Source: Firmicutes bacterium ZOR0006
GTDB taxonomy: Bacteria; Bacillota_I; Bacilli_A; Culicoidibacterales; ZOR0006
NCBI GenBank assembly: GCA_000798955.1
Contig: JTLC01000002.1
Span: 1 to 41,932, forward strand
Direction of reading: 5' to 3'
Length of the DNA stretch: 41,932 bases
Part shown: positions 23,115-38,839 of the stretch, in pieces
How positions within the stretch are numbered: the first letter of the stretch is position 1
How the letters are laid out: each line of letters begins with the position of its first letter
Program-made: the position numbers and the translations under genes
Notes under the pieces: generated by a model
Seen by the model: only the letters and a program-made list of their open reading frames with translations
What the model was told of the DNA's origin: nothing
The model's database searches: none

Positions 23115-23173
23115 TAAAAAGCATAACTTTTGTGTAGATGTTAGCATTCACAAAAGTAAGCCTAAAAAACGAT

Positions 23174-23243
23174 ACCTTATAGCCCTTCTATTTACGGTTT
23201 CAGGGTAGAGACTCTTGGACCAATTACCAAGTATATATAAAGT
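23174..23243 (-). promoter_or_regulatory. Guanine-class purine riboswitch aptamer, guaB leader
   Basis: P1 is ACUUUAUA/UAUAAGGU, P2 CUUGG/CCAAG with a UUGG-type loop, J2/3 contains CUCUACC, and L3 is CCGUAAAU. P3 is unusual: three or four canonical pairs followed by a tandem G-A/A-G mismatch. The base equivalent to position 74 is C (GCUAU), which marks guanine rather than adenine binding. Confidence 0.88.
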
Positions 23244-23289
23244 GTCAGATTATTCGTGTGTCGGGAATATTTAATTTTTATTAGTATTT

Positions 23290-35389: not shown

Positions 35390-35450
35390 ATCTCAGGAAA
35401 ATGCTTTCATTTCGGCAAAAACAACGTTTTTGGCAGCAAGAAAAACACTT

Positions 35451-35517
35451 CCACATAGTCCCCGAGTTATGGCTCAGGGGTAGAGACTTTCAGACCAATT
35501 TCTGAAGATATATGTAG
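35451..35517 (-). promoter_or_regulatory. Guanine-class purine riboswitch aptamer, purL leader
   Basis: P1 is CUACAUA/UAUGUGG, P2 CUUCAG/CUGAAAG with an AUUGG-type loop, J2/3 is CUCUAC, and P3 is CCCUGAG/CUCGGGG with a shortened loop CCAUAA. J3/1 ACUAUG has C at position 74, hence guanine class. It lies within 35 nt of the purB stop. A weak promoter (TTGACT, 17 nt, TGAATA) may overlap the end of purB. Confidence 0.92.
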
Positions 35518-35542
35518 TCGGTATTCATTCTAAATAGATATC

Positions 35543-36841: not shown

Positions 36842-37985
36842 TTCTTTTTCCTCCAGTACTTGAATCACAATATCCTAATCTATTATACACAATTTTTGCA
36901 TTTTTTTCTGCAGAAGCTTGTGGTGTGTCAATAAAGGTCACATGTCCCATTTTTCGATTGACCTTCATCTCTCCCTTTTGATAACAATGCACATATGCAT
37001 TGGTTGGTAATTCCGGTACCATTTGGAGAAATCTAGGCATATCTTGGCCATATAAATTTATCATTACCGTTGCTTGTCGCAAGCTCGTATCACCCAGTGG
37101 CCAGCCACAAATTGCTCGTATATGCTGCTCAAACTGGCTCACAAAACAGCCTTCAATCGTATAATGCCCTGAATTATGTGGCCGTGGTGCTAATTCATTA
37201 ATATAAACCGTTTCGCCAGCAATAAAACATTCAATTGCCATTGTCCCAATTAATTCATGATGTTCCATCAGTTTTTGTGCTAACGCTTCAACTTGATTGA
37301 CAATTCCTTGTGAACAAGGTGCCGGTACGAGTGTTCGTGCTAACATTTGATTGCGGTGTTCATTTAATCCAATTGGAAATGTCGTCATCTCACCAGTTAC
37401 ACTTCGTGTCGTAATGATTGAAACTTCATAATCAAATTGGATAAATGCTTCTAATACACAATCCGCTGGTAAAAGTTGTTGTGCTTTCTCAACATCGGCT
37501 GGTGTGTACAACACACACTGTCCTTTCCCATCGTATCCCCCAAAACACGTTTTCAAAACGGCCGGATAACCAATTATTTGTAATGCTGTTTCAAGCTCGG
37601 CCTGAGTTGTAACTGCTTGAAATGGTGCAATCGGAATATCGAGTTGTGCTAAAGCTTGTTTTTCACGAAGTCGATGTTGCGTTAAGTGTAATGGCTTGGT
37701 CCCTTGTGGCAAATATCCTGTCATCATAACTTCTTCCAAAGCAGTAGCAGGAATATTTTCAAATTCATACGTTAGAACGTCTGCTTTTTCTGCAAGCAAT
37801 TGTAAACCTTTTTGATCATCATAAGCAGTGACAATGTGCTCATCTGCTACTTGAGCAGCGCAACAATTTTCCTGTGGATCAAGAATAACGACATAAAATC
37901 CCATTGATTTAGCAGCTAATGTTAACATTTGTCCTAATTGTCCACCACCAATGATGCCAATTGTTTGATAAGGTGTAATGATCAT
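36834..37985 (-). CDS. purK: N5-carboxyaminoimidazole ribonucleotide synthase
   Basis: PurK makes N5-CAIR from AIR, ATP and bicarbonate. The 383-residue ATP-grasp protein has the N-terminal [13 protein letters not shown], the ATP-binding [15 protein letters not shown], and [18 protein letters not shown]. It overlaps purE by four bases and purB by eight, showing tight coupling. PurE then converts its product to CAIR. Confidence 0.98.
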
Positions 37986-38479
37986 GACCGAACCTCAGCT
38001 AAGTCACTCGTCGCTTCAACTGCTTGTTTCATCGCTGTACGGTAGTTATCAAGTTGGGTAGCGATATTCACATCTGTCATCCCTAACAGTTGTGCGGCCA
38101 GTAAACCGGCATTTTTTGCTCCTGCTTCACCAATAGCTACGGTTGCAACTGGCACCCCAGCTGGCATTTGCACGATTGAGAGTAACGAATCGAGTCCATT
38201 TAATGCTCTTGATTGTACTGGCACCCCAATAACTGGTAAGGTTGTACACGCAGCAACCATTCCTGGTAAGTGCGCGGCACCACCAGCACCAGCAATAATC
38301 ACTTGCAAGCCATTTTCTCGCGCTTGCTTCGCATATGTAATCATTGCTTCCGGTGTCCGATGAGCTGAGATAACTCTGACATCATAGGTAATCGCTAATT
38401 CATCTAATACTGTTGTTGTTGCTTTCATTGTTTGATAGTCAGATTGACTGCCCATAATAATTCCTATTTTCGGTTTCAT
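37982..38479 (-). CDS. purE: N5-CAIR mutase (PurE class I)
   Basis: PurE rearranges N5-CAIR to CAIR. The 165-residue chain has [34 protein letters not shown] and [30 protein letters not shown] in outline, all of class I. AAGGAG lies 9 nt before the ATG. The upstream leader carries an aptamer, a leader ORF and a terminator, so expression should respond to guanine. Confidence 0.98.
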
Positions 38480-38520: not shown

Positions 38521-38567
38521 AAAAAAACACAGCAATGGCGTTTAAAAAACACGCACTCTTGCTGTGT
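38521..38567 (-). terminator. Attenuator terminator between leader ORF and purE
   Basis: Arms ACACAGCAA and UUGCUGUGU (38559-38567 with 38527-38535, 9 bp) enclose a smaller GCGU/ACGC stem and are followed by a seven-U run. The 5' arm is made of codons 15-18 of the leader ORF, and the leader stop codon lies in the loop, so a translating ribosome would block folding. Confidence 0.88.
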
Positions 38568-38610
38568 GGTTATTCGATAGTTTGATAACGGGTGTTGTTG
38601 TCGCGTACAT
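38542..38610 (-). CDS. Leader peptide of the purE operon (22 codons)
   Basis: The ORF reads MYATTTPVIKLSNNHTARVRVF and ends in TAA. A perfect AAGGAGG lies just before it (ATG 38610, 6 nt from AGGAGG), one of the best ribosome sites in the window. The peptide is not obviously functional in itself. It has three ACA threonine codons in a row, but no long run of a single amino acid as in classical amino-acid attenuators. Its end overlaps the terminator before purE. A segment upstream (38631-38638) can pair either with the aptamer P1 strand or with the leader start codon region (38605-38610). Translation of the ORF is therefore probably the regulated event. No protein evidence exists; the call rests on ribosome site, position and overlap. 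Confidence 0.65.
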   Translation of the reverse strand: MYATTTPVIKLSNNHTARVRVF

Positions 38611-38694
38611 GGTCATCCTCCTTGAATTCGCGATGCACACGGAAAAATCTTTCGCCTAGCTCAAAAAAAGTGCTAAGCAAAAAAGTTAGGTACA

Positions 38695-38760
38695 TCGTAG
38701 TCGATTTCTTTACGGGAAATCGGTAGAAACTTGCAAGCCATATCCTTGCTATTATACGAG
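38695..38760 (-). promoter_or_regulatory. Guanine-class purine riboswitch aptamer, purE leader
   Basis: This is the closest of the three to the classic form: UAUAAU in J1/2, P2 with the AUAUGG loop, GUUUCUACC in J2/3, P3 CGAUUU/AAAUCG around CCCGUAAAG, and ACUACGA with C at position 74. P1 has five strong pairs (UCGUA/UACGA). No good terminator directly follows; the hairpin GCUUAG/CUAGGC downstream has no adjacent U-run. Confidence 0.95.
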
Positions 38761-38810
38761 TTTGGCATGACGACATGGCGCCCGCCTTATTAATAGTTTT
38801 TTCACTTATG

Positions 38811-38839
38811 ATAATAACAACATTAAGGTAAATAGACAA
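38811..38839 (-). promoter_or_regulatory. Promoter of the purE leader and operon
   Basis: TTGTCT (38834-38839) and TATTAT (38811-38816) are exactly 17 nt apart on the minus strand, between the folD stop and the aptamer. The start should fall near 38804. Confidence 0.7.

Follow-up and report, generated by a model that had tools for sequence, protein, structure and literature searches.

A probable relay from a guanine-type riboswitch through a translated leader ORF to an intrinsic terminator upstream of purE in Firmicutes bacterium ZOR0006

In this study, the leader of the purE gene of Firmicutes bacterium ZOR0006 (GCA_000798955.1, contig JTLC01000002.1, positions 1–41,932; this whole 41,932-nucleotide stretch is referred to as the window, and the leader lies on its minus strand) was analysed. 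It probably acts as a relay, in which a purine riboswitch controls translation of a short leader open reading frame (ORF), this translation controls an intrinsic terminator, and guanine switches purE off. We judge the leader to be an expression platform that is new for purine riboswitches; its causal steps, in which guanine is bound, the leader is translated and this translation prevents termination, are inferred. We also lean towards the view that similar leaders of purE and purL, seen in three or more families of a single class, form a recurrent, undescribed class of purine-riboswitch platforms, in which the ligand would govern the loading of ribosomes onto a leader ORF that is not conserved, and these ribosomes would in turn control an intrinsic terminator.

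The features of the purE leader, in the order of transcription, are as follows:

38811–38839, minus strand: probable promoter, TTGTCT (38839–38834), 17 nt, TATTAT (38816–38811), with an extended -10 (consensus scan)
38678–38779, minus strand: purine riboswitch aptamer, guanine type (RF00167, 74.9 bits; gathering score 37)
38759–38755 and 38699–38695, minus strand: P1, 5' strand UCGUA and 3' strand UACGA, respectively
38690–38697, minus strand: extension of the P1 3' strand, CGAUGUAC, the predicted partner of anti-P1 when P1 is not formed (fold and duplex)
38641–38689, minus strand: A-U-rich linker hairpin closing the P1'/anti-P1 helix, predicted in both species compared below despite 59% identity
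38631–38641, minus strand: anti-P1 / anti-start strand CGUGUGCAUCG, whose partner is either the P1 3' strand or the leader start (duplex predictions, opening energies, conserved block)
38638–38631, minus strand: 8-bp core of anti-P1, GUGCAUCG
38611–38622, minus strand: Shine-Dalgarno (SD) sequence AGGAGG of the leader ORF (38622–38617) with spacer, -11.2 kcal/mol
38542–38610, minus strand: leader ORF, ATG, 22 codons plus UAA, MYATTTPVIKLSNNHTARVRVF
38521–38567, minus strand: intrinsic terminator with arms ACACAGCAA (38567–38559) and UUGCUGUGU (38535–38527) and a run of seven T (38527–38521)
37982–38479, minus strand: purE (TIGR01162, 219.1 bits), followed by purK, purB, purL and purC

The specificity position J3/1 is a C (in GACUACGA), as in the guanine type, while the adenine-type loci L002 and L037 carry a U. 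The purE aptamer is a guanine-type purine riboswitch, for which guanine binding is predicted from the sequence. Six purine riboswitches were found in the ZOR0006 genome, and none of the other five is accompanied by a comparable strong-SD ATG leader ORF, the one weaker case being an 8-codon ATG ORF beside a guaB-type gene. Three of the riboswitches (35436–35535, 23160–23260 and 38678–38779) lie in the window, within one strand-consistent cluster of purine genes, where they precede purE, purL and a guaB-like gene. In the sister species G001, a further purine riboswitch precedes a gene resembling formate-tetrahydrofolate ligase that lies upstream of purE. Adenine-type aptamers with GAUUACG (L002, G000:C48; L037, G001:C39; L016, G002:C1) precede a gene start resembling FAD-dependent oxidoreductases. 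The TPP riboswitches of G000 and G001 have no leader ORF.

The sequences named in an earlier note on this DNA were all found where it had placed them, on the minus strand. It had claimed that the aptamer is followed by no usable terminator; as a qualification, the linker before the leader ORF does contain an A-U-rich hairpin of 13 bp that runs into UUUUUCC and makes a poor terminator. Its description of a strong-SD, 22-codon ORF whose codons 15–18 form the 5' arm of the terminator was likewise confirmed. The leader stop codon UAA lies in the terminator loop. The SD duplex is the third strongest among 23 scored ORFs of the window (purE itself has -8.8). About 60 nt separate the end of the leader stop (38542) from the purE start (38479), without stop/start overlap. 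A consensus terminator scan called no terminator anywhere in the purE leader, missing even the good one at 38567–38521. The promoter candidate scores 9/12 against the consensus, which is not above the shuffled count, and is 72% identical in G001. Within the 5' leader, the segment 38761–38803 (GUCGUCAUG) can pair with the leader-start region in full-length folds; it is not conserved in G001.

The whole arrangement (aptamer, P1' extension, anti strand, SD, 22-codon ORF and terminator register) recurs in the purE leader of G001. This is the single genome available for comparison within the genus, and lineage covariation accordingly rests on one pairwise comparison. Identity between the two species amounts to 97% in the aptamer (P1–P1') and 92% in the block from anti-P1 to the start, and the SD block is identical at 23/23 positions with one indel (96%). 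Values for the linker (59%), codons 3–13 of the leader (59%) and third codon positions of purE (45%) are far lower.

Two mutually exclusive pairings are predicted around the leader start. When P1 is not formed, the extension of its 3' strand pairs with anti-P1; this interaction between CGAUGUAC (38697–38690) and GUGCAUCG (38638–38631) had been proposed in the earlier note and is supported by fold and duplex predictions. When P1 is formed, anti-P1 is predicted in ZOR0006 to pair across the leader start (CGUGUGCAU with AUGUACGCG, 9 pairs). The masking of the start that had been suggested, GUGCAU with AUGUAC, therefore stands as a pairing, albeit a longer one, and its exact helix is missing from G001, where the start hairpin is longer, consists partly of other pairs and has an A-A mismatch at one of the ZOR0006 pairs. 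A second proposal, masking of the SD by UUUUCC (38641–38646), was abandoned, as this element is absent in G001 and does not appear in the folds. The comparison of the two species indicates that the predicted mechanism is conserved and the exact masking helix is not.

The predicted cost of opening the region from the SD to +10 rises from 5.2 kcal/mol with P1 blocked to 10.1 with P1 formed in ZOR0006, and from 6.0 to 10.3 kcal/mol in G001; none of 40 linker shuffles matched the difference in either species. These are equilibrium predictions that miss cotranscriptional effects and are not fully specific, since a terminator-type control from the same genome (L001, the G000:C7 permease leader) gave a difference of the same size (+4.8 kcal/mol, matched by 1/40 shuffles). 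With the complete 5' leader included in the fold, the difference falls to about 1.6–3.4 kcal/mol in ZOR0006 and is ~5–7 in G001. The control leader itself has a terminator without anti-P1 overlap and a gene start that is predicted to be 4.8 kcal/mol harder to open with P1 formed, and its mechanism may be other than ordinary.

The terminator, on the other hand, is predicted to be independent of P1. Its probability in the two P1 states is 0.954/0.953 in ZOR0006 and 0.992/0.997 in G001, and anti-P1 (38638–38631) does not overlap it (38567–38521). At equilibrium, the riboswitch is thus predicted to have no direct action on the terminator. Since the terminator probability is equal in both P1 states, some relay must carry the signal, and translation would be the obvious link between the leader start and the terminator.

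According to the proposed mechanism, in the absence of guanine the P1 3' strand would pair with anti-P1 (38638–38631) in a long hairpin, leaving the SD and AUG of the leader open, and a ribosome would translate the 22 codons. While decoding codons 15–22, or at the UAA in the loop, it would block pairing of the terminator 5' arm, and RNA polymerase would reach purE. With guanine bound, P1 would keep its 3' strand, the freed anti-P1 would pair across the leader start and initiation would fall; the untranslated terminator would then fold and purE would be off. It would be the act of translation that matters, and the peptide itself would do nothing. One point against such a relay is the possibility that, in some Bacillota, RNA polymerase runs ahead of the ribosomes, in which case the time available for the relay would be short.

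An ordinary transcriptional riboswitch, in which the P1 state controls the terminator directly or kinetically and the leader ORF is incidental, is an unlikely explanation. It draws on the facts that most surveyed purine riboswitches of the class have no such ORF, that the stretch from aptamer to leader contains a weak hairpin with a U5 tail, and that cotranscriptional effects escape equilibrium folding. It is opposed by a strong terminator that lacks overlap with anti-P1 and has a probability of 0.95 in both states, by an SD and start that are nearly as well conserved as the aptamer, and by the recurrence, in unrelated leaders, of an SD-led ORF with its stop at a terminator.

This recurrence became apparent from purine-riboswitch loci collected across the class (144 distinct leaders, 139 of them with an identifiable gene). 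An ATG short ORF with an SD duplex of <= -10 kcal/mol is present in 11 of the 139 leaders, compared with 0.32 expected from dinucleotide-shuffled leaders. Seven leaders, including those of ZOR0006 and G001, show the full relay layout with no ordinary terminator before it. The others are the purL leaders of 4/4 genomes examined in family f9 (L008, L011, L017 and L244) and the purE leader of G068 from a third family (L258, a locus also listed as L171), the gene names in f9 and G068 being taken from reading protein starts. Across the seven, the hairpin of P1' extension and anti strand has -11.9 to -25.9 kcal/mol, and the duplex of anti strand and leader start -9.1 to -14.5 kcal/mol. Part of the P1 3' strand is often found again at the leader start (AUGUAC in ZOR0006, GAUGAAA in L008, AAAAGUA in L244 and GACAAA in L017). 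The stop codon lies within the ribosome footprint of the terminator 5' arm in all seven: in the loop (ZOR0006, G001, L017 and L258), in the 5' arm (L244), or upstream of this arm by 8 nt (L008) or about 10 nt (L011). Opening-energy differences range from +3.1 to +5.7, with 0, 0, 0, 0, 1, 5 and 2 shuffle matches per 40; the weaker results are those of L244 (5/40) and L258 (2/40). In L258, the terminator is predicted to fold weakly (P of about 0.3 in both P1 states). The leader ORF of L258 has 56 codons, begins with MNNSK-like repeat units and stops in the terminator loop. The f9 leaders and the members of the genus are related among themselves, and the seven cases therefore represent perhaps three independent ones. 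The core of the model advanced in the earlier note, namely leader translation and purE expression without guanine, and a masked leader start, a folded terminator and no purE expression with it, is supported by comparative and thermodynamic predictions for ZOR0006, G001 and these five further genomes of two other families.

The relay appears to be uncommon, because most of the matches fetched after a pattern scan of 395 genomes of the class run directly into a full-length gene. A translational version with the full gene behind the SD (families f13 and f22) was rejected, as the opening-energy test showed no switching. The reading that every leader ORF behind a purine aptamer is a relay was also rejected, given that L253, L254, L263 and L305 show no clear switching; several of the excluded leaders have an ordinary terminator before the ORF. 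In L253, L254, L263, L282, L305, L315 and the purE leader of G002 (L039), an apparently ordinary terminator is followed by a strong-SD short ORF, which in several cases reaches a second terminator before the gene. In those leaders of the L253 type that were tested, the ORF start is not a target of the predicted switch. In L283 and L284, strong-SD ORFs of 54 and 59 codons follow an ordinary terminator and overlap the gene start, which suggests translational coupling.

The leader ORF might also be gated as proposed and act through another output (Rho termination, mRNA decay or re-initiation at purE), with the terminator serving as a constitutive attenuator. This would agree with a predicted switch that acts on the leader start, and coupling of a riboswitch to an upstream ORF (uORF) via re-initiation is known from M. 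tuberculosis ppe2. We nevertheless give it a low probability, in view of the ~60 nt between leader stop and purE start, the SD of purE's own (-8.8) and the position of the stop codon at an intrinsic terminator in all seven leaders.

A functional small protein under riboswitch control would account for the strong SD and the intact frame of the leader ORF, and is very improbable: the ZOR0006 peptide has 7/22 residues in common with that of G001 (MNAMTTHKQSKQEFYAAEVCAF), compared with 87% identity of PurE, it has no Pfam match, and other leaders encode unrelated peptides. The length of 22 codons and the position of the stop codon in the terminator loop are the same in both species. Judging from the two sequences, it is the translation start and the overlap with the terminator that are conserved, not the peptide. 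Codon-specific attenuation was rejected, as neither MYATTTPVIKLSNNHTARVRVF nor MNAMTTHKQSKQEFYAAEVCAF contains a pathway-related codon run. A PurE search of named genomes (non-exhaustive, and possibly omitting near relatives) revealed no close relative with such a leader. Finally, direct antitermination by pairing of anti-P1 with the terminator 5' arm is hardly credible: five pairs can be drawn (GUGUG/CACAC in ZOR0006, GUGUA/UACGC in G001, both sides changed between the species), but they form a short helix over a long loop that is not seen in the folds, guanine would activate, which is the wrong polarity for purE, and no counterpart was noticed in the f9 leaders.

If the riboswitch–leader–terminator relay is real, a metabolite signal passes from RNA to the ribosome and from there to RNA polymerase. 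A riboswitch platform is normally assigned to either the transcriptional or the translational type; the purE relay would be both in series, with a translational switch made to act on transcription. Tight coupling of transcription and translation would be required for it in a Gram-positive lineage, where such coupling is debated, and this could be tested with one reporter. Rfam riboswitch models stop at the aptamer, because of which relay platforms are easily missed. The same applies to the 45–65 nt to which a recent full-length survey limited the sequence following purine aptamers (PMC13273304), as this is too short to extend to the terminators described here.

The earlier note knew of no purine riboswitch working through a leader peptide, which agrees with the papers searched: a literature search covering few subscription journals, so that absence is not proof, returned no case in which a purine riboswitch works via a leader ORF, and neither leader peptides nor uORFs come up in a review of expression platforms from 2024. 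With the xpt-pbuX type of purine (guanine) riboswitch (RF00167), the ZOR0006 leader shares the aptamer, the P1 strand exchange and, at purine genes, the OFF logic. In the textbook form of that platform, however, the exchange partner of P1 belongs to the terminator/antiterminator (PMC10907184), whereas in ZOR0006 the exchange strand overlaps the leader start and the terminator is separate.

Closest among known systems is the ppe2 B12 riboswitch of M. tuberculosis, where an anti-TIR strand, otherwise held by an anti-anti-TIR, masks the initiation region of the uORF uPPE2, on whose translation the downstream gene depends (PMC11260477). As there, the ligand state is predicted to alter access to the start of a short ORF in ZOR0006. 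The ppe2 system differs in its ligand class (B12) and in its output, which is termination-reinitiation at an AUGA overlap and not control of an intrinsic terminator (PMC11260477). Leader-peptide attenuators of the trp/his type, exemplified in Firmicutes by a predicted histidine leader upstream of hisS/hisZ (PMC2965389), resemble the ZOR0006 leader in the SD-led short ORF that overlaps a terminator arm; unlike them, it has no regulatory codon run, and its initiation would be gated by the aptamer without codon-dependent stalling. The tandem attenuators of Salmonella mgtCBR likewise combine translation of a leader ORF with transcription attenuation in one 5' UTR but, as described, have no purine aptamer gating leader initiation (PMC3641672). 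On this analysis, the ZOR0006 purE leader would best be filed as a purine riboswitch with a new, attenuator-like expression platform, whose input appears to be initiation and not codon-dependent stalling.
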